In this document: positions 8,721 to 17,711 of the stretch, in pieces
How the letters are laid out: every line of letters starts with the position of its first letter
Position numbering within the stretch: the first letter of the stretch is position 1
Origin: Limnohabitans planktonicus II-D5
GTDB taxonomy: Bacteria; Pseudomonadota; Gammaproteobacteria; Burkholderiales; Burkholderiaceae_C
Assembly: GCF_001270065.2 (NCBI RefSeq)
Contig: NZ_LFYT02000003.1
Span: 62,001 to 126,000, forward strand
DNA: 64,000 nucleotides
Reading direction: 5' to 3'
Notes under the pieces: model-generated
The model's input: only the letters and a program-made list of their open reading frames with translations
What the model was told of the DNA's origin: nothing
Database searches by the model: none
Program-made: the position numbers and the translations under genes

Positions 8721-11030
8721 ATGAATTTTTCAATTACTCGCGCCTTTTCACAACCCGCGTCCATGGCTGCATTGACCACACTGTTGGCCTGCATGCCTGC
8801 CTGGGCCGTGACGCCATTCACTGTGCGTGATATCCGGGTTGAAGGTTTGCAGCGCATTGAGCCCGGTACGGTGTTTGCATCGCTGCCTTTACGAGTGGGT
8901 GATCAATACTCGGATGACAAAGGTGCTGCGGCTATTCGCGCGCTCTTTGCTTTGGGATTGTTCAAGGATGTTCGCCTTGAAACACAGGGTGATGTGTTGG
9001 TTGTGGTCGTTGAAGAGCGTCCTTCCGTGGCGCTTGTCGAGTTTGTGGGGCTCAAGGAGTTCGACAAGGATGTTCTGATCAAGGCGCTGAAAGAAGTGGG
9101 CTTGTCAGAAGGGCGTCCTTTTGACAAGGCCCTTGCGGACAAGGCCGAGCAGGAACTGAAGCGCCAATACATCAACCGAAGCCTTTATGGCGCAGAGGTC
9201 GTTTCAACTGCCACCCCCATAGACCGCAACCGGGTCAACCTGACCTTTACGATCACCGAAGGTGGGCCTGCGAAGATCAGTCAAATTCAGATTGTGGGCA
9301 ATAAGGCTTTCACCGAATCTGAATTGAGAGATCAATTCAATTTGGACACGGGTGGCTGGATGAGCTGGTACACCAAGTCAGACCGCTATTCGCGCACCAA
9401 ACTCAATGCTGACTTGGAGGCCTTGCGGTCTTTTTATCTGGCCAGGGGGTTTTTGGAGTTTCGCATTGATTCCACCCAGGTGGCCATGTCGCCCAACAAA
9501 CAGGACATGTCCATCACGATCAATGTGACTGAAGGTGAGCGATTCGTGGTTTCTGGCGTCAAGCTCGACGGCAATTACCTGGATAAAGAAGACGAATTCA
9601 GGACTTTGGTCAAAATCAAGCCCGGTCAAGCCTACAACGCAGAAACTGTGGCAGAAACGACAAAGGCGTTCACCGATTACTTTGGGAAGTTTGGTTTTGC
9701 CTTTGCTCGCGTCGAAGCCAAGCCTGAAATTGATCGTCAAAACAACCGTGTCCAGTTTGTTTTAATGGCCGAGCCCTCTCGTCGGGCTTATGTTCGTCGC
9801 ATCAACATTGCGGGCAACAACCGCACGCGAGACGAGGTGATTCGCCGTGAGTTCCGTCAATTTGAAGCGGCTTGGTACGACGGTGACAAGATCCGATTGT
9901 CACGCGACAGAGTGGACCGTTTGGGTTATTTCACGGACGTGAATGTGGAAACACAAGAAGTGCCCGGTGCGCCGGATCAGGTTGATTTGGTTTTGTCTGT
10001 GGTTGAAAAGCCCACAGGCAGTGTCACACTGGGGGCTGGTTTTTCTTCTGCTGAAAAAGTGGCGCTGAGCTTTGGTATTCAGCAAGAAAATGCCTTCGGA
10101 TCTGGCAACTATCTGGCTATTTCGGTCAACACCAGCAAGTTTAACCAGAACCTGGTCTTGAGTACGACCGATCCTTATTTCACCCAAAATGGGGTTTCCC
10201 GTACTTTGGATGTCTTTCACCGCACAACGCGTCCTTTATTGGGCGATCTGAATGCTTACAGTCTGGTGAACTCGGGATTGGGTCTTCGCTTTGGTGTCCC
10301 TGTTACCGAAACAGATCGGGTTTTCATGGGGCTCAACGTTGAGCAGACCCAGATCCGCGAGGGAACGACTCTGGGTTTGCCCGTTGAATACAAAGACTAT
10401 GCAGCTCAGTTTGGATCAACCAGCACTGCTTTGCCCTTGACTTTGGGTTGGGCTCGTGACGGTCGTGACAGTGCTTTGGTGCCCACCCGTGGCTCTTTGC
10501 AGCGTTTCAATTCTGATGTCAGTGTGGCAGGCGATGTGCGTTACATCCGCAGTAATTATCAGTTTCAGCAGTACATTCCCCTCAGCAAAAAATACACATT
10601 GGCATTCAATACCGATCTGGGTTGGGGTAAAGGCCTGAATGGTCAGCCTTACCCACTCTTCAAGAACTTTTATGTCGGCGGGCTGGGGAGTGTTCGGGGT
10701 TTTGAGCAGTCGACGCTGGGGCCTAGTTCAAAGACAACGGGCATTTACTTGGGTGGACCTAAGAAAATGGTCTTCAATGCCGAGTTCATCACGCCATTCC
10801 CCGGCGCTGGCAATGACAAAACCCTTCGCATGTTTGGTTTCGTGGATGCAGGCTACGCCTTCAAAGACTCTGAAAATGTAGCGTTCAGTGCTTTGCGGGC
10901 TTCGGCAGGTGTCGGCTTGAGCTGGATTTCACCCATGGGGCCCTTGCGCTTTTCGTATGCGAACCCGATTCGCAAGCAGAGTGGCGATAAAATTCAACAA
11001 CTTCAATTCCAAATCGGAACATCCTTCTAA
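8721..11030 (+). CDS. bamA: Outer-membrane protein assembly factor BamA
   Basis: Central subunit of the BAM complex, which inserts beta-barrel proteins into the outer membrane. The 769-residue product has an N-terminal signal peptide (cleavage near PAWA-VTPF, residue 30), about five POTRA repeats (to residue 420 or so; the first starts FTVRDIRVEGLQRIEPG), and a C-terminal 16-strand barrel with the conserved loop-6 VRGFE segment (GGLGSVRGFEQS). It ends in QFQIGTSF, a barrel beta-signal with terminal Phe. The stop codon overlaps the skp start by one base. Its unusual structured leader replaces rseP. Confidence 0.97.
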   Translation: MNFSITRAFSQPASMAALTTLLACMPAWAVTPFTVRDIRVEGLQRIEPGTVFASLPLRVGDQYSDDKGAAAIRALFALGLFKDVRLETQGDVLVVVVEERPSVALVEFVGLKEFDKDVLIKALKEVGLSEGRPFDKALADKAEQELKRQYINRSLYGAEVVSTATPIDRNRVNLTFTITEGGPAKISQIQIVGNKAFTESELRDQFNLDTGGWMSWYTKSDRYSRTKLNADLEALRSFYLARGFLEFRIDSTQVAMSPNKQDMSITINVTEGERFVVSGVKLDGNYLDKEDEFRTLVKIKPGQAYNAETVAETTKAFTDYFGKFGFAFARVEAKPEIDRQNNRVQFVLMAEPSRRAYVRRINIAGNNRTRDEVIRREFRQFEAAWYDGDKIRLSRDRVDRLGYFTDVNVETQEVPGAPDQVDLVLSVVEKPTGSVTLGAGFSSAEKVALSFGIQQENAFGSGNYLAISVNTSKFNQNLVLSTTDPYFTQNGVSRTLDVFHRTTRPLLGDLNAYSLVNSGLGLRFGVPVTETDRVFMGLNVEQTQIREGTTLGLPVEYKDYAAQFGSTSTALPLTLGWARDGRDSALVPTRGSLQRFNSDVSVAGDVRYIRSNYQFQQYIPLSKKYTLAFNTDLGWGKGLNGQPYPLFKNFYVGGLGSVRGFEQSTLGPSSKTTGIYLGGPKKMVFNAEFITPFPGAGNDKTLRMFGFVDAGYAFKDSENVAFSALRASAGVGLSWISPMGPLRFSYANPIRKQSGDKIQQLQFQIGTSF

Positions 11031-11548
11031 TGACCATGATTCGCAAACACTTCACCTTGGCCCTGATTGCAGGTGCCAGCGTATTCGCATCATTTGCTCA
11101 AGCGCAGGAATTTAAATTGGGCTTTGTGAATACCGAACGCATCTTCCGCGAGGCAGCGACTGCCAAGCAAGCGCAAGCCAAACTTGAGCAGGAGTTTTCT
11201 CGACGCGAAAAGGAACTGGTAGAGGCGGGTAACACCCTGAAGCTGGCGTCTGAAAAATTTGAGCGAGAAGCGCCCACTTTGCCAGAGTCCCAGCGGACAG
11301 CTCGTCAAAAGCAGTTGATTGATCAGGATCGTGAATTCCAGCGCAAGCGCCGTGAATTTCAGGAAGATCTCAACGCCCGCAAAAACGAAGAGCAGCAGGT
11401 GGTGGTCGAGCGTGCAAACCGTGCGGTCAAACAAGTCGCCGAGTCTGAAAAATACGATGTGATTTTCCAGGAAGCGGTGTATATCAATCCCAAGCATGAC
11501 ATCACCGAAAAAGTCATCAAGGCGCTCAATGCGTCTGCTGGCAAATAA
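11030..11548 (+). CDS. skp: Periplasmic chaperone Skp (OmpH family)
   Basis: Trimeric periplasmic holdase that carries unfolded outer-membrane proteins to BAM. The 172-residue precursor has a signal peptide ending FASFAQAQ, then the family opening LGFVNTERIFREA, followed by a long charged coiled coil (about residues 40-130). The ATG overlaps the bamA TAA stop (TAATG), implying translational coupling; a second ATG two codons in is possible. The bamA-skp-lpxD order is standard in proteobacteria. Confidence 0.94.
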   Translation: MTMIRKHFTLALIAGASVFASFAQAQEFKLGFVNTERIFREAATAKQAQAKLEQEFSRREKELVEAGNTLKLASEKFEREAPTLPESQRTARQKQLIDQDREFQRKRREFQEDLNARKNEEQQVVVERANRAVKQVAESEKYDVIFQEAVYINPKHDITEKVIKALNASAGK

Positions 11549-11572: not shown

Positions 11573-12559
11573 GTGTCGTTGAAACTTGGCTCGATCGTCG
11601 GGACCCTCGGCGGTCGATTGTTGGGAAGCCCGGATCTGCTCATGACGGGGCTGGCACCTTTGCAGTCTGCGCATTCCCATCAAATCAGCTTTTTGAGCCA
11701 ACCCAGGTACCGCAGCCAATTGCCCGCCAGCCAGGCCGGTTGCGTGATTGTCGGGGTTGATATGGAAGACGAGGTCAAGGATCGTTTGTCAGCGATCATC
11801 ACCGACGACCCCTATCTTTACTTTGCACGTCTGACCCGCTTGTGGAAAAGTGAACACCGGCAAACTGCAGGTCCTCGCATTCATCCATCCGCTGTCATTG
11901 ATTCAACCGCAGTCATTGCCTCAGATGCCGTGGTTGGTCCCTTGTGCGTGATCGAACGAGGCGCTCAGCTAGGGGCGGGTACTGTGCTCAAATCCCGCGT
12001 GTCGATTGGCGAAGATTGCATCGTAGGTGCGCGCTGTCTGCTGCATTCTGGCGTAGTGATCGGTGCCGACGGCTTTGGTTTTGCGCCGCACCAAGGGCAG
12101 TGGGAAAAAATCGAACAGTTGGGTGCGGTGCGCATTGGTGATGATGTGGAGATTGGTGCCAATACCTGTATTGATCGCGGCGCATTGGAAGACACGGTCA
12201 TCGAAGACGGCGTCAAGCTCGATAACCTGATTCAGATTGGACACAACGTTCACGTCGGTCGTCACACCGCCATGGCCGGGTGTGTGGGCGTTGCGGGCAG
12301 TGCCCGAATTGGCGCGCATTGCACTGTGGGTGGAGGCGCTGTGGTGCTGGGGCATTTGACCGTGGCCGATCATGTTCACATTTCGGCGGCTTCTGTGGTC
12401 ACGCGCTCTATTTTGAAGCCCGGACAATATACAGGTATGTTTCCCTTGGACAGCAATGCGAATTGGGAAAAAAATGCGGCGACCCTCAAACAATTGTCTC
12501 GCTTGCGTGATCGCATCAAATCGCTTGAAAGCGACAATCAAAACAACAAGGAAAATTGA
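11573..12559 (+). CDS. lpxD: UDP-3-O-(or N-)acylglucosamine N-acyltransferase LpxD
   Basis: Adds the second acyl chain, on nitrogen 2, in lipid A synthesis. A GTG start gives 328 residues: an N-terminal uridine-binding domain (about 1-100), then left-handed beta-helix hexapeptide repeats (about 105-290) such as [13 protein letters not shown], and a C-terminal helix. The catalytic His lies in [12 protein letters not shown]. If the gnn genes downstream work as inferred, its substrate would be a 3-N-acyl rather than 3-O-acyl sugar. It ends overlapping the fabZ start region. Confidence 0.96.
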
Positions 12560-12561
12560 TC

Positions 12562-13002
12562 ATGATGGATATTCATAAAATTTTGAAACAGCTGCCGCAC
12601 CGGTATCCTTTTTTGTTGGTGGATCGTGTGTTGGAGATTGAAAAAGGCGTGCGCATCAAAGCCTTGAAGAATGTCACCATCAATGAACCTTTTTTCACCG
12701 GGCACTTTCCACACCGTCCCGTGATGCCGGGAGTGCTGATGCTGGAGGCCCTGGCCCAGGCTGCTGCCTTGTTGTCCTTTGACACGCTCGACTCCACACC
12801 CGATGACAACACGGTGTATTACTTCGCCGGGATTGATGGTGCCCGATTCAAGCGGCCCGTGGAGCCGGGTGATCAATTGACCCTGGAAGTTCAGCTCGAC
12901 CGCATGAAGGCCGGCATTTTTAAATTCAAGGCACAGGCCAAAGTCGGTGATGAGTTGGCCTGCGAGGCCGATTTGATGTGCACCATGCGCAAAATTGCCT
13001 GA
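12562..13002 (+). CDS. fabZ: 3-hydroxyacyl-ACP dehydratase FabZ
   Basis: Hot-dog-fold dehydratase of type II fatty acid synthesis; it competes with LpxA for 3-hydroxyacyl-ACP. The 146-residue protein carries [16 protein letters not shown], the active-site His in [23 protein letters not shown] (written in part: [12 protein letters not shown]) and the catalytic Glu in the same helix. The ATG at 12562 (or 12565) has AAGGAAAA upstream; an in-frame TTG at 12556 overlaps the lpxD stop and is less likely. Confidence 0.97.
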
Positions 13003-13008
13003 GGACCT

Positions 13009-13824
13009 ATGGCGACTATCCACTCCACCGCTTTGGTCGATCCAGCCGCACAACTGGACCCTTCTGTGACCGTTGGCCCCTACACCATCATTGGCCCGAA
13101 CGTGGTCATCGGGGCTGGCTCCACGGTGGGCTCGCATTGCACGATCGAAGGCCACACCACCATCGGTCAAAACAACCACATCCACAGCTACTCCTCGCTG
13201 GGGGCCGCACCGCAAGATAAAAAATACGCGGGTGAGCCCACCCGATTGGTGATCGGCAATGGCAACACCATTCGGGAGTTTTGCACCTTCAATGCCGGTA
13301 CCGTCAACGGTGGCGGTGTGACCCAAGTGGGTGATGACAACCTGTTCATGGCTTACGTCCATTTGGCGCACGATTGCCAAATTGGCAGCCACACGATTTT
13401 TGCCAACAACTCGCAACTGGCGGGTCATGTGGTGGTGGGCGACTGGGTCATCCTGGGTGGCTTCACGGTGGTACGACAGTTCTTGCGTTTGGGTGCGCAC
13501 AGCTTCACGGCGATGTGCACCTTGTTGTTTGCAGACCTGCCGCCTTATGTGACGTGCCAGGGCCAGCCTGCTTCTGCCCGCACTGTGAATGCTGAAGGTC
13601 TGCGCCGCCGGGGGTATTCTCCGGCCCGAATCGCTGCGGTGCGCGCTATGCACAAGGCGCTTTACCGGGAAAACCTGACTTTGGAGGCTGCAAAAGAGCG
13701 CATCCTGCAGATGGCCAAGGACAAACCCGAGGTTCAGGCCGATGTGGACATGATGCATGACTTTTTGTCCGGCGTTTCGCCTAAAGTGGGCATTGTGCGG
13801 TCGCGTCGTCGCTCGGTTGATTGA
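13009..13824 (+). CDS. lpxA: Acyl-ACP--UDP-N-acetylglucosamine acyltransferase LpxA
   Basis: First enzyme of lipid A synthesis, moving 3-hydroxyacyl from ACP to position 3 of the sugar nucleotide. The 271-residue protein shows hexapeptide repeats and the conserved QDKKYAGEPTRL substrate loop. The catalytic His is in YVHLAHDCQIG, and LAGHV is kept. Two differences from E. coli LpxA stand out by hand alignment: the His160 position is Arg (FTVVRQF against MTAVHQF), and the Gly173 chain-length ruler position is Met (TAMCTLL). Met there is linked to shorter (C10) chains in Pseudomonas. It is followed by gnnA and gnnB homologues, which suggests a diamino-sugar substrate. Confidence 0.95.
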   Translation: MATIHSTALVDPAAQLDPSVTVGPYTIIGPNVVIGAGSTVGSHCTIEGHTTIGQNNHIHSYSSLGAAPQDKKYAGEPTRLVIGNGNTIREFCTFNAGTVNGGGVTQVGDDNLFMAYVHLAHDCQIGSHTIFANNSQLAGHVVVGDWVILGGFTVVRQFLRLGAHSFTAMCTLLFADLPPYVTCQGQPASARTVNAEGLRRRGYSPARIAAVRAMHKALYRENLTLEAAKERILQMAKDKPEVQADVDMMHDFLSGVSPKVGIVRSRRRSVD

Positions 13825-13876
13825 ACAATTCAAGGGCCTGGAATTTTTCCGGGCCTGAGCATGAAAGGAGGGCCCC

Positions 13877-14818
13877 GTGGCCCTGTTGCGTTGCGCCGTC
13901 ATTGGCGTTGGTTATCTGGGCAAATTTCATGCTCAAAAGTACGCCAAAATTCCCGAGTGTCAGCTCGTCGCGGTCGTGGACAGTCGGCAAGAGCAGGCCG
14001 ATGCTGTCGCCGGGCCTTTGGGCTGCGAGGCACTGACGGATTACCGTGCATTGATTGGTCAGGTCGACGCGGTCTCCATCGTGGTGCCCACACAGGGTCA
14101 TTACGACGTGTGCGCAGATTTTCTGAGAGCCGGGGTGCATGTCTTGGTCGAAAAGCCCATGACCACCACCTTGGAGCAGGCCGATGAACTGATTCGCTTG
14201 GCCAAGGAGAACCGGTGCGTGTTGGCGGTGGGCCATCTGGAGCGCTTCAACCCGGCCGCTTTGGCGCTGGAGCCCTTGTTGTCCAACCCCCGATTCATCG
14301 ACAGCTCACGCCTGGCCCCTTTCAAGCCGCGTGCAACCGATGTGAGTGTTTTGCTCGATCTGATGATCCACGATGTGGATTTGATTTTGTCGCTGGTCGA
14401 CAGTGAGTTGGAGAGCGTGGAATGTTCCGGCGCGCGTGTATTGACCTCTGACATTGACATTGCCAATGCCCGGATTCGCTTTGCCAACGGTTGCGTAGCC
14501 AACGTGACGGCCAGCCGCGTCAGCGCCAAGAGCGAACGCAAGATGCGCGTGTTCCAACATCAGGCCTGCCATTCGCTGGACTTTCAGGCCCGCACCCTGA
14601 CGACTTACCGTGGTGCCACCGACCCGAAAGCCGATCCCGAGCAAGCCATTGAGCGGCATGAGCAATCGTTCGGTGAAGCTGACTCGCTGTTTGCGGAGAT
14701 TGTGGATTTTGTTGACAGTATTCGTGGGCAGCGCCCCCCCAAGGTGAGCGGCGAGGCGGGCCGTCGCGCGTTGGAAGCCGTTCAACGCATCACCGAAGCC
14801 ACCCGTCTGATTTCCTGA
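13877..14818 (+). CDS. gnnA: Gfo/Idh/MocA oxidoreductase, probable GnnA (UDP-GlcNAc 3-dehydrogenase)
   Basis: Predicted to oxidise C3 of UDP-GlcNAc to the 3-keto sugar with NAD. The 313-residue protein has an N-terminal Rossmann fold (CAVIGVGYLGKFHAQKY), the family signature VLVEKPMTTT (Lys of the EKP motif), GHLERFNPAA, and the C-terminal domain motif LLDLMIHDVDLIL. A GTG start follows AGGAGGG seven bases upstream. It lies between lpxA and lpxB and 25 bases before an aminotransferase gene, the arrangement described for gnnA-gnnB in Acidithiobacillus ferrooxidans. A WlbA-like role in another amino sugar is the alternative, but the lpx setting argues for lipid A. Confidence 0.8.
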   Translation: MALLRCAVIGVGYLGKFHAQKYAKIPECQLVAVVDSRQEQADAVAGPLGCEALTDYRALIGQVDAVSIVVPTQGHYDVCADFLRAGVHVLVEKPMTTTLEQADELIRLAKENRCVLAVGHLERFNPAALALEPLLSNPRFIDSSRLAPFKPRATDVSVLLDLMIHDVDLILSLVDSELESVECSGARVLTSDIDIANARIRFANGCVANVTASRVSAKSERKMRVFQHQACHSLDFQARTLTTYRGATDPKADPEQAIERHEQSFGEADSLFAEIVDFVDSIRGQRPPKVSGEAGRRALEAVQRITEATRLIS

Positions 14819-14843
14819 TTTTTGATTTTTTGAAAGGACCGCC

Positions 14844-15944
14844 ATGCGCATCCCTATGGTCGATCTGGTCGCGCAATACCGCGATCTTCAGCCCCAGCTG
14901 GAGCCCGCTTTTTTGAGTGCCCTGAATGCTGCCCAATTCATTTTGGGCCCCAATGTCCAGGCTTTTGAGAAAGAGGCTGCGGACTACCTGGGCGTGGCCC
15001 ACGCCATCACTTGCGCCAACGGCACGGATGCCTTGCACCTGGCCTTGCTGGCGGCCGACATTGGCCCGGGGGACGAGGTCATCACCACGCCCTTTACCTT
15101 CATTGCCACCGCCGAGGCGATTGCCTATGTGGGGGCCAAAGCGGTGTTTGTGGACATCGATCCACGCACCTTCAACATCGACGTTGAGCAGACCCGCCGT
15201 GCGATCACATCCAAAACCAAGGCTTTGCTGCCTGTGCATTTGTTTGGACAGCCTGCTGACCTCGCGCCGCTCATGGCTTTGGCCCAAGAGCACCGCTTGC
15301 AGTTGGTGGAAGATTGCGCGCAGTCCTTCGGTGCTGATATCGGTGGCCGCAAAACCGGCGCCATGGGCGATGTGGCAGCTTTCAGCTTCTTTCCCAGTAA
15401 AAACCTGGGATGCTACGGTGACGGCGGCATGGTGACCACGCAGTCCGATGCCATGGCCGAAAAGCTGCGCATGCTGCGCAACCACGGCAGCAAAGTGCGT
15501 TATTACCACGACATCATTGGCTACAACAGCCGCCTCGACGAGTTACAGGCGGTGGTTTTGCGTGCCAAGATGCCCTTGATCGATCGTTACAACCAGGAGC
15601 GCCGCCGCGTGGCCCACCGCTACAACGCGGGTTTGGCTGGGTTGAATGTACAAACGCCTTATGAAGACGGTGTGGGCCTGCACGTCTACCACCAATACAC
15701 CTTGCTGACCGATGACCGTGCAGCCATCCAGCAGGCCTTGACTGCGCAACAAATCGCCAGCGCTGTTTATTACCCCGTGCCATTGCACCAGCAAAAAGTG
15801 TTTGCCTCCATCGCGTCTGGTGCCAGCTTTCCGGTGACCGAATCGGTGGCCGAGCGTTGCCTGTCTTTGCCGATCTACCCGGAGCTGAGCAACGAAGCCA
15901 TTGACGAGGTGTGCGGCGTGATTCGCCAGGCTTTGAAGGCGTGA
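14844..15944 (+). CDS. gnnB: DegT/DnrJ/EryC1 aminotransferase, probable GnnB (makes UDP-GlcNAc3N)
   Basis: PLP-dependent sugar aminotransferase predicted to aminate the 3-keto product of GnnA, giving UDP-2-acetamido-3-amino-glucose. The 366-residue protein has the family landmarks ANGTDALHLAL, TPFTFIATAEA, VEDCAQSFGA (PLP-binding Asp) and SFFPSKNLGCYGDGG, with the Schiff-base Lys at residue 186. A C-terminal YYPVPLHQQ motif is also typical. AAAGGA precedes the ATG. Its stop codon overlaps the lpxB start (TGATG), so it is translationally tied to lipid A synthesis. It could instead be a WbpE/WlbC-type enzyme for O-antigen, but no O-antigen genes are near. Confidence 0.8.
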   Translation: MRIPMVDLVAQYRDLQPQLEPAFLSALNAAQFILGPNVQAFEKEAADYLGVAHAITCANGTDALHLALLAADIGPGDEVITTPFTFIATAEAIAYVGAKAVFVDIDPRTFNIDVEQTRRAITSKTKALLPVHLFGQPADLAPLMALAQEHRLQLVEDCAQSFGADIGGRKTGAMGDVAAFSFFPSKNLGCYGDGGMVTTQSDAMAEKLRMLRNHGSKVRYYHDIIGYNSRLDELQAVVLRAKMPLIDRYNQERRRVAHRYNAGLAGLNVQTPYEDGVGLHVYHQYTLLTDDRAAIQQALTAQQIASAVYYPVPLHQQKVFASIASGASFPVTESVAERCLSLPIYPELSNEAIDEVCGVIRQALKA

Positions 15945-17116
15945 TGGCGCAAGCACGGCCAATATCGACCATGGCCACGCCAGACTTGCGTGTGAGCATG
16001 GTGGCGGCCGAGCGTTCGGGCGACATGCTTGCGGCCTTGTTGTTGCAAGGCATGCAAAAAACCTGGCCACTCTTGCAAGCTTCGGGCATTGGCGGACCGC
16101 AGATGGATGCGACCGGTTTTGTGTCGCGCTGGTCATGTGACGAGCTGTCGGTGCGAGGTTTGGTGGAGGCGCTTTGGCGATACCGCCACATCAATGGCAT
16201 CCGGCAGGCCTTGATTCAGGATTTGCTGGCCTCGCCCCCGGACTTGTATGTGGGTGTGGATGCCTCCGATTTCAACTTGCCCGTTGAGCGCTTGCTGCGG
16301 CAAAAGGGTGTTCCCACGGTCCAGTTGGTGTGTCCTTCCATATGGGCCTGGCGTCCAGAGCGTGTGAAAAAAATCCGCGACAGCGTGGACCATGTGCTGT
16401 GTATTTACCCTTTTGAGCCGGATTTGTTGGCCCAGCATGGGATCAGTGGCACCTTTGTGGGACACCCTGTAGCCGATGTCATTGCGCTCACACCTGACCG
16501 TCAGCAAGCTCGGCTGGCATTGGGCTTGCCAGTCGATGCCACCGTTGTGGCCTTGTTGCCCGGCAGCAGACCCTCCGAGGTCAAAGGTTTGGCTTTGTCA
16601 TTTTTGCAAGCGGCTCAGCTCATGCTCCAGCAAAGGCCAGAATTGAAATTTGTCTTGCCGACGCACGGGCTCTTGAAGCCCATGATCGATGCCGCTATTG
16701 CCCAAGTCGGCATGCAAACTCATGTGCAGGTGGTGATGGGCCGTTCGCACGAGGTGCAAGCGGCTTGTGATGTGGCGCTGGTGGCCAGCGGTACGGCCAC
16801 CTTGGAAACTGCTTTGCACAAGCGTCCCATGGTCATCGCGTACAAAATGCAATGGCTGTCCTGGCAGATAGCCAACCGTCAGCGTTTGCTGCCTTGGGTT
16901 GGTTTACCCAATATTCTGTGCAACGAAAGTTTGGTGCCTGAATTTTTGCAAGAGCAAGTTCAACCCACGGCGCTGGCCCAAGCGGTCATGCGGTGGCTGG
17001 ACGATCCTGACGCAGTGACCCACATACAGCAGCGGTTCGCCGATCTGCACCATCAATTGCGTCAGGACATGCCGACGGTGGCGACCCATGCGATCCAAAA
17101 AATCATTGCTGCTTGA
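15944..17116 (+). CDS. lpxB: Lipid-A-disaccharide synthase LpxB
   Basis: GT-B-fold (family GT19) glycosyltransferase that joins lipid X to UDP-diacylglucosamine at the inner membrane. Signatures visible are [45 protein letters not shown] and [11 protein letters not shown]. The N-terminal motif, normally AGExSGD, reads AAERSGD here. The ATG at 15944 overlaps the gnnB stop; a second ATG at 15971 is also near the family start. The 390-residue length is normal. The 3' end overlaps rnhB by 29 bases. Confidence 0.95.
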
Positions 17117-17711
17117 ACAAAAAACCTTGAACTGGGACACCTCTGGCCTGATGGCTGGCGTGGACGAGGCCGGCCGCGGCCCCTTGGCTGGCCCGGTGGT
17201 CGCGGCTGCCGTGATCCTGGACGACCTGGACCCCATTCAAGGTTTGAACGATTCCAAAAAACTCACAGCCAGGCGCCGTGAGGCCTTGTTTGACGAAATT
17301 CGGGCGCGTGCTTTGTGTTTTGCCATTGCTGAAGCGAGCGTGCAGGAAATCGACCGAATCAACATCTTGCAGGCCACGATGCTTGCGATGAAGCGTGCCG
17401 TGGAGGCTTTGCGGCTGCCGCCCAAACTGGTTCTGGTGGATGGAAATCGCTTACCCAAGCTGGCCATGAGGGCTGAAGCTGTTGTGCAGGGCGATGCCTT
17501 GGTGCCAGCCATCTCTGCTGCATCCATCTTGGCCAAGGTTCACCGCGACCGTTTGTGTGTAGAGATGCACGAGCGCTACCCCGCGTATGGTTTTGACCAG
17601 CACAAAGGCTATGGTACGGCCCTTCACATGGCCGCTTTGCAAGCGCACGGCCCGGCAGACTGCCACAGACTGACATTCGCCCCAGTGGCCAGGAGTGTGC
17701 GATGCATCTGA
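17088..17711 (+). CDS. rnhB: Ribonuclease HII
   Basis: Removes RNA from RNA-DNA hybrids and single misincorporated ribonucleotides. The 207-residue protein contains [19 protein letters not shown] with the catalytic Asp-Glu pair, LNDSKKLT, the second Asp in [12 protein letters not shown], and [15 protein letters not shown] with the last metal ligand. The ATG lies inside the end of lpxB (29-base overlap), as often found in beta-proteobacteria. Its stop overlaps the next gene. Confidence 0.96.

Follow-up and report, generated by a model that had tools for sequence, protein, structure and literature searches.

What are genes for a Gfo/Idh/MocA oxidoreductase and a DegT aminotransferase doing between lpxA and lpxB in the lipid A operon of a Limnohabitans species? 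Lipid A is the essential and usually conserved part of lipopolysaccharide (LPS), and variation in LPS is normally discussed for the O-antigen or for late modifications. The window analyzed here is the whole 64,000-nucleotide stretch of Limnohabitans planktonicus II-D5 (G000:C3:62001-126000; genome size 4.87 Mb), whose genus group includes Limnohabitans sp. T6-20, Hippo3, and G3-2; NCBI taxonomy places Limnohabitans in the Comamonadaceae. We conclude with considerable confidence that fabZ/lpxA-gnnA-gnnB-lpxB is an alternative version of the locus, likely swapped in place by homologous recombination, and that it is predicted to specify lipid A with amide-linked instead of ester-linked chains at position 3.

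The forward strand of the window carries lpxD, fabZ, lpxA, the oxidoreductase gene, the aminotransferase gene, lpxB, and rnhB in this order between positions 11573 and 17711, as assigned from open reading frames (ORFs) and profile matches (Table 1). The first-pass annotation, made from the DNA letters, had placed a Gfo/Idh/MocA and a DegT gene between lpxA and lpxB; this is confirmed by the ORFs and by NCBIfam and Pfam matches, and we refer to the two genes as gnnA and gnnB. Together with the flanking lpxA and lpxB, they lie on one strand with tight spacing (gaps of 52 bases between lpxA and gnnA and 25 bases between gnnA and gnnB, and an overlap of 1 base between gnnB and lpxB), the arrangement that we term a gnn-type lpx operon. 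The overlap of the gnnB stop with the lpxB start, also proposed at that stage, is possible as read, since position 15944 is both the last base of the gnnB stop (TGA, 15942-15944) and the first base of an in-frame ATG of lpxB; an in-frame GTG upstream at 15911 is an alternative start. No sigma-70-like promoter site was found in 12900-17200, which is compatible with a single operon without proving it; terminator-like sites were at chance level. The arrangement is not due to chance, because it recurs in 17 congeners, in 3 Serpentinimonas-like genomes, and in Geobacter-type loci.

Within the genus, GnnA was found in 23 of 90 genomes, that of the window included (15 of the 56 genomes with at least 90% completeness); we call these gnn+ and the others gnn-. 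LpxA was detected in 88 of the 90 genomes, with one match each. Identity to the window's protein ranged from 85 to 100% among the 23 gnn+ genomes, the upper value being that of the window's own LpxA, and from 63 to 71% among the remaining 65, where two matches were partial; no value fell in between. We compared 20-kb regions from 42 congeners besides the window (17 gnn+ and 25 gnn-), picked mainly for long contigs. All 17 gnn+ regions, and the 3 Serpentinimonas-like genomes, show gnnA and gnnB matches and a gap of about 2.1-2.2 kb between lpxA and lpxB, whereas this gap is at most 55 bp in gnn- regions. LpxB splits by gnn status like LpxA in 42/42 regions, but most flanking genes do not: the median identities to the window (gnn+/gnn-, in %) are 96.6/88.2 for fabZ, 93.7/67.8 for lpxA, and 86.7/54.3 for lpxB, against 80.1/80.1 for dxr, 82.0/79.4 for bamA, 79.5/75.6 for lpxD, 86.5/85.9 for rnhB, 80.9/79.6 for rlmB, and 92.5/92.9 for carA. 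A simple insertion of gnnAB into a vertically inherited operon was considered and rejected for this genus, because lpxA and lpxB change class as well, in identities and in trees; gnnAB were thus not simply added to a shared operon. Individual pairs can be read in the same way. Between the gnn+ genome G327 and the gnn- genome G300 (93.3% identity in rpoB and rpoC), the flanks are 78-83% identical (carA, 90%), lpxA 68%, and lpxB 60%. Between G327 and the more distant gnn+ genome G319 (90.0%), identity is 66-73% from dxr to lpxD, and 85% in fabZ, 90% in lpxA, 88% in gnnA, 84% in gnnB, and 84% in lpxB.

The trees separate the cassette from its surroundings. The rpoB+rpoC tree covered 49 genomes, 36 of them from the genus (14 gnn+ and 22 gnn-), these being the genomes with a usable rpoB (53 of 90 matched) and a retrieved lpx region. 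On it, gnn+ and gnn- Limnohabitans interleave, monophyly of the gnn+ genomes is rejected by the approximately unbiased test (p-AU 7.7e-49), and the gnn label needs 6 changes within the genus (7 by the group table, of which starred branches force at least 5). Nucleotide trees within the genus require 4 label changes each for dxr, bamA, and skp, 3 for lpxD, 1 each for fabZ, lpxA, and lpxB, and then 8 for rnhB, 8 for rlmB, and 7 for carA. With all rows, fabZ needs 2 changes; it follows the cassette inside the genus and not with Serpentinimonas. Of the 80 named loci, 28 were chosen for the LpxA and LpxB protein trees, in most cases for carrying lpxA; three duplicated genomes that were present already and were removed, and 24 rows could be used in each tree. 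A branch with support 100 separates the 18 gnn+ Limnohabitans and 3 Serpentinimonas from the 25 gnn- congeners and from 15 further members of the family. Limnohabitans monophyly is rejected for LpxA+LpxB (p-AU 2e-4), and Serpentinimonas, which the LpxA and LpxB trees place with the cassette clade, goes with other genera on rpoB+rpoC. The four genes from lpxA to lpxB are co-inherited in these comparisons, and the exchanged unit spans about 4.5 kb from fabZ, at its edge, to lpxB; by the tree counts, its downstream boundary at rnhB is sharp. Judged from these trees, the two versions were likely swapped several times within Limnohabitans, and we infer homologous recombination as the means. Two genomes assigned to another genus (G080 and G184, group g81) fall inside Limnohabitans on rpoB+rpoC, which may reflect a misplaced genus boundary or recombination in rpoBC.

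Table 1 Features of the lpx region, in coordinates of the window.
Feature	Position	Strand	Evidence and remarks
lpxD	11573-12559	+	ORF; NCBIfam LpxD
fabZ	12565-13002 (alternative start 12556)	+	NCBIfam FabZ; upstream edge of exchanged block
lpxA	13009-13824	+	NCBIfam LpxA, 335 bits (cut-off 226); cassette-type, predicted acceptor UDP-GlcNAc3N
LpxA His59-Ser60-Tyr61 (E. coli 63-65)	13183-13191	+	Residue alignment
LpxA Arg156 (E. coli His160 position)	13474-13476	+	Residue alignment
Hairpin, lpxA stop to gnnA ribosome site	13834-13856	+	Covariation in most gnn+ congeners
gnnA ribosome-binding site AAAGGAGGG	13864-13872	+	DNA reading, alignment
gnnA (313 amino acids, GTG start)	13877-14818	+	Pfam GFO_IDH_MocA; UDP-GlcNAc 3-dehydrogenase homologue
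gnnB (366 amino acids)	14844-15944	+	Pfam DegT_DnrJ_EryC1; pyridoxal phosphate aminotransferase homologue
lpxB	15944-17116	+	NCBIfam LpxB, 301 bits (cut-off 190); cassette-type lipid A disaccharide synthase
rnhB	17088-17711	+	Named by eye; first gene beyond downstream edge of exchanged block

The nearest solved relative of GnnA by structure alignment is GnnA of Acidithiobacillus ferrooxidans (44% identity, same fold), ahead of WlbA or other Gfo/Idh/MocA enzymes. NCBIfam NF040723, the archaeal UDP-N-acetylglucosamine (UDP-GlcNAc) 3-dehydrogenase, was not accepted as an assignment, for although it is the top-scoring NCBIfam model for GnnA, it reaches 202.1 bits against a cut-off of 450. The window's genome contains no second GnnA match at E ≤ 1e-50, and its two weak extra matches show 31-38% identity over short stretches. 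GnnB belongs to the DegT family (PF01041, 417.6 bits), and its SFFPSKNLGCYGDGG aligns with SFFPSKPLGCYGDGG of WbpE, the lysine motif for pyridoxal phosphate (PLP); we take the Lys of SFFPSKNLGCYGDGG to bind PLP. In a tree with 11 of the 18 gnn+ rows, GnnB falls inside a 45-row clade of gnn-locus proteins (support 98) that holds no reference enzyme, its nearest relatives being from Serpentinimonas (81%) and Halothiobacillaceae (71%), while WbpE, 8e75, and three rows from two other loci form a separate branch (support 100). We rejected an O-antigen WlbA/WbpE pair making UDP-2,3-diacetamido-2,3-dideoxyglucuronic acid (UDP-GlcNAc3NAcA), because GnnA is nearer GnnA by structure alignment, the sole comparison with WlbA, and GnnB stands apart from WbpE in the tree. 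The two proteins therefore do not group with WlbA/WbpE, a grouping that the first-pass annotation had named as counting against its own interpretation, and its reading of gnnA-gnnB homologues with a predicted amide-linked lipid A is supported by these sequence comparisons. In the trees, GnnA (38 rows, with the even-numbered named loci from L034 on) and GnnB are closest to gammaproteobacterial proteins (Halothiobacillaceae, Methylococcales); LpxA and LpxB sit with those of the window's own family.

The predicted pathway would begin with GnnA, a putative NAD-dependent (nicotinamide adenine dinucleotide) enzyme that would use NAD+ to oxidize UDP-GlcNAc at the 3-hydroxyl, yielding a ketone. GnnB would transaminate this 3-ketone to the amine, giving UDP-GlcNAc3N, the 3-amino analog of UDP-GlcNAc, and the cassette LpxA would place a 3-hydroxyacyl chain on the 3-amine. 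LpxC and LpxD, both outside the cassette, would complete UDP-2,3-diacyl-GlcN3N (GlcN3N, 2,3-diamino-2,3-dideoxyglucose), with LpxD adding the 2-N chain, and the cassette LpxB would join the disaccharide. With a selective LpxA, lipid A would carry four amide chains; with an unselective one, it would be mixed.

The catalytic residues His125, His122, Gln73, Asn198, and Arg204 (E. coli numbering) are intact in 21/21 cassette LpxA proteins, and Asp74, Lys76, His144, and Gln161 are likewise kept. By our criterion, the two LpxA classes are separated by fifteen alignment positions, one of which (265) is a stop-codon artefact. At the position of E. coli His160, which we take to be an active-site residue, Arg156 of the window is Arg in 21/21 cassette proteins, and His is found in 40/40 gnn- and 22/22 other LpxA proteins. 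The equivalents of E. coli residues 63-65 are His (20/21), Ser, and Tyr (each 21/21) in cassette proteins and Phe-Gln-Phe in 40/40 gnn- proteins. We know of no sequence rule for the amine selectivity of LpxA, which in Leptospira is attributed to a turn of the backbone at the residue equivalent to Gln73, and in open-licence literature we found no paper pairing 'LpxA' with 'His160'. Position 173 is Met in 21/21 cassette proteins and in 38/40 others, with Ile in one gnn- congener and Phe in one family member. According to the part of PMC6286764 available to us, bigger residues at this position of E. coli LpxA shift the preference towards 10-carbon chains; 3-hydroxydecanoyl chains are therefore expected in both lipid A types. 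A stricter form of our proposal is that the ester and amide chemotypes are mutually exclusive alleles: the block would be swapped via shared flanks, and LpxA would be committed to the amine by the change from His160 to Arg, so that LpxA, GnnAB, and LpxB travel together. We consider the chances of this form to be even.

Several observations count against an exchanged amide-type locus. The trees come from 'quick' searches with no bootstrapping, and recombination may have affected rpoB+rpoC as well. The upstream edge of the exchanged unit is gradual, and the LpxA/LpxB split is old, so the exchange is read from the trees and not seen. The deepest congeners on rpoB+rpoC (G087, G368, and G311) are gnn+, so that the exchange may have run in either direction. 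The median identity of skp to the window is higher in gnn- (83.7%) than in gnn+ regions (66.3%), and rnhB of G327 is nearly equally close to gnn+ G319 (83%) and gnn- G300 (81%). As for the enzymes, A. ferrooxidans GnnA (7bvj), on a long branch, groups with other Burkholderiales GnnA proteins outside lpx operons (support 96) and outside the window's clade, so that the function of GnnA is carried over a fair distance. The LpxA proteins beside gnnAB in Geobacter-type loci retain His160 in 5/5 cases; Arg156 is thus lineage-specific and a candidate for the selectivity switch rather than a proven one. A known LpxA selectivity site was also dismissed as a marker of the two classes, because among 18 named E. 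coli LpxA sites just positions 63 and 160 separate them. Finally, E. coli LpxA is unselective between UDP-GlcNAc and UDP-GlcNAc3N, so some ester product from the cassette LpxA is possible.

This last point leads to a variant of our proposal that survives best among the alternatives and that we regard as possible, though only tentatively: the cassette LpxA would take both acceptors, and the supply of amine would set an ester/amide mixture or hybrid. Most of the named LpxA active-site residues are indeed unchanged, and the lipid A of Campylobacter jejuni is described as a GlcN3N/GlcN (glucosamine) hybrid in the portion of PMC7956469 available to us. However, the LpxA class tracks gnnAB in 88/88 genomes and the LpxB class does so in 42 regions, and this pattern suggests that something beyond a tolerant LpxA is involved.

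An old polymorphism without exchange, in which an ancestor had both versions of the locus and descendants lost one or the other, is unlikely. Such a history would agree with the deep divergence of the two LpxA classes and with the single origin of each in the genus, but each genome has one lpxA match, and in the 42 regions compared the two versions sit at an identical position, with shared flanks on either side. In addition, the gnn label changes 8 times on the tree of the downstream neighbor rnhB and once on that of lpxB, and Serpentinimonas has the cassette but a different species position.

A role of GnnA and GnnB in another pathway, for instance that of an O-antigen 2,3-diamino sugar, with an incidental position in the lpx operon and ordinary lipid A, is still less probable. 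What speaks for it is the wider distribution of gnnA: at E ≤ 1e-60, 19 of 399 genomes of the order match GnnA, and 17 Burkholderiales gnnA(-gnnB) loci outside the genus lack lpxB, as well as any lpxA above 37% identity, within about 1.5 kb on each side (some stretches being shorter). Four widened Burkholderiales gnnA regions contained no lpxB or fabZ, one having an LpxA-like gene behind gnnB, and A. ferrooxidans GnnA is nearer these non-lpx GnnA proteins in the tree. Against it stand the co-inheritance of a distinct LpxA class in 88/88 genomes, the closer structural match of GnnA to GnnA than to WlbA, and the separation of GnnB from WbpE. Finally, faster evolution of LpxA and LpxB in place after gnnAB insertion, alike in several lineages, would account for shared substitutions at otherwise conserved LpxA positions (160 and 64) but is very improbable, given that lpxA, gnnA, gnnB, and lpxB of G327 are 84-91% identical at the nucleotide level to those of G319 and G301 against 65-73% from dxr to lpxD, that the LpxA and LpxB proteins of the cassette group in a single supported clade and not in parallel ones, and that pair identities and label counts point to a jump at the block edges.

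An exchanged cassette thus remains our preferred reading. Across the family, GnnA was found at E ≤ 1e-50 in 8 of 299 sampled genomes and in 3 of 141 genera, namely the window's genus, g74 (Serpentinimonas), and g98, a weaker match (45%) whose gnnA adjoins a 37% LpxA-like protein, the ordinary LpxA of that genome being elsewhere. A 37% LpxA-like protein is also paired with gnnA in L010 (2382-3191) and with gnnA-gnnB in L281 (9326-10018), with no lpx operon in reach; such a protein may N-acylate a different diamino sugar. Among loci L034, L041, L037, L042, L086, L088, L094, and L096, those of Thioalkalivibrio and Methylococcaceae have gnnA-gnnB followed by a 30-34% LpxB, with lpxA on the opposite strand or out of reach, and four Legionella records have gnnA directly followed by lpxB (33-36%), with gnnB not adjacent. 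Serpentinimonas (L180-L182) and Thioalkalivibrio (L034/L041) are known from highly alkaline waters; such habitats would fit alkali-stable amide chains, but freshwater Limnohabitans does not. An assembly or binning error is unlikely, as the cassette lies on long contigs of T6-20, Hippo3, and G3-2, records that are not metagenome-assembled genomes. Extra lipid A acyltransferase genes were rejected as a co-varying trait: gnn+ and gnn- genomes are alike, with two PF03279 matches in 19/23 and 60/67, respectively, and mostly none in the rest.

Between lpxA and gnnA, a hairpin varies in sequence, with its stem preserved. In an alignment of 16 of the 18 gnn+ genomes (G087 and G368, with a 13-base gap, and Serpentinimonas were left out), 87% of cells are paired, 4 of 8 pairs have changes on both sides, and 14 further pair types occur, against a shuffled mean of 9.5 and with 0/500 shuffles as high. 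When the partners are shifted by one column, as many pairs (4) show changes on both sides, but 65% instead of 87% of cells are paired. By plain folding energy, the lpxA-gnnA gap does not stand out (z -0.78); the hairpin is supported by covariation instead. Because a T run is absent after the stem, the hairpin is probably not a terminator.

A second split was observed in the same region at skp (bamA-skp, 8721-11548; L166-L207, L220-L222), which is 63-68% identical to the window in 12/17 gnn+ congeners, 81-97% in the other five, and 75-94% in the 25 gnn- congeners. The C-terminal third of bamA also loses identity in 2/4 gnn+/gnn- pairs, those with G316.

The GnnA/GnnB pathway of A. ferrooxidans was reportedly described by Sweet, Ribeiro and Raetz in 2004. 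In that species gnnA and gnnB lie between lpxA and lpxB and are, as far as is known, a species trait, whereas gnnAB in Limnohabitans are a within-genus alternative that changes along with LpxA and LpxB. The likeness between the two systems lies in the assigned function, the GnnA fold, and the lpxA-lpxB position; the function assigned in A. ferrooxidans is a two-step conversion of UDP-GlcNAc to UDP-GlcNAc3N, according to the part of PMC8036547 available to us. The Geobacter-type loci L040, L047, L063, L065, and L084 (and L057, cut by a contig end) have the same lpxA-gnnA-gnnB-lpxB order; in the first five, fabZ lies ahead, as does lpxD where the contig reaches, but they differ from the window in their LpxA (42-47% identity, His160 kept as noted above) and LpxB (34-36%). 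In the accessible portions of PMC8036547, PMC5644692, and PMC7663294, the same predicted gnnA/gnnB enzymes are given for C. jejuni, rhizobia, Phyllobacterium, Oligotropha, and Granulibacter, GlcN3N is shown chemically in lipid A of Phyllobacterium and Granulibacter, and an exchanged four-gene cassette is not reported for these taxa. Phyllobacterium differs in that its gnnA/gnnB pair lies apart from lpxD-lpxA-lpxB (PMC5644692, same portion). Inactivation of C. jejuni gnnA/gnnB led to higher Toll-like receptor 4 (TLR4) activation and more sensitivity to antimicrobial peptides (PMC8036547, likewise in part). Horizontal transfer of the Leptospira rfb cluster, as far as the consulted part of PMC9736851 describes it, resembles our case in that LPS genes moved as a block between related species; however, rfb comprises serovar-determining surface antigen genes, whereas the Limnohabitans block comprises essential lipid A genes.

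In summary, lipid A backbone chemistry appears to be swappable among near relatives of Limnohabitans, isolates included. The two versions of the locus would provide a natural experiment on the use of amide-linked lipid A in the face of alkali, hydrolases, predators, phages, and antimicrobial peptides, and the two classes of LpxA and LpxB offer a clean comparison for finding the determinants of acceptor choice. They also call for caution in predicting LPS type from genus-level taxonomy.

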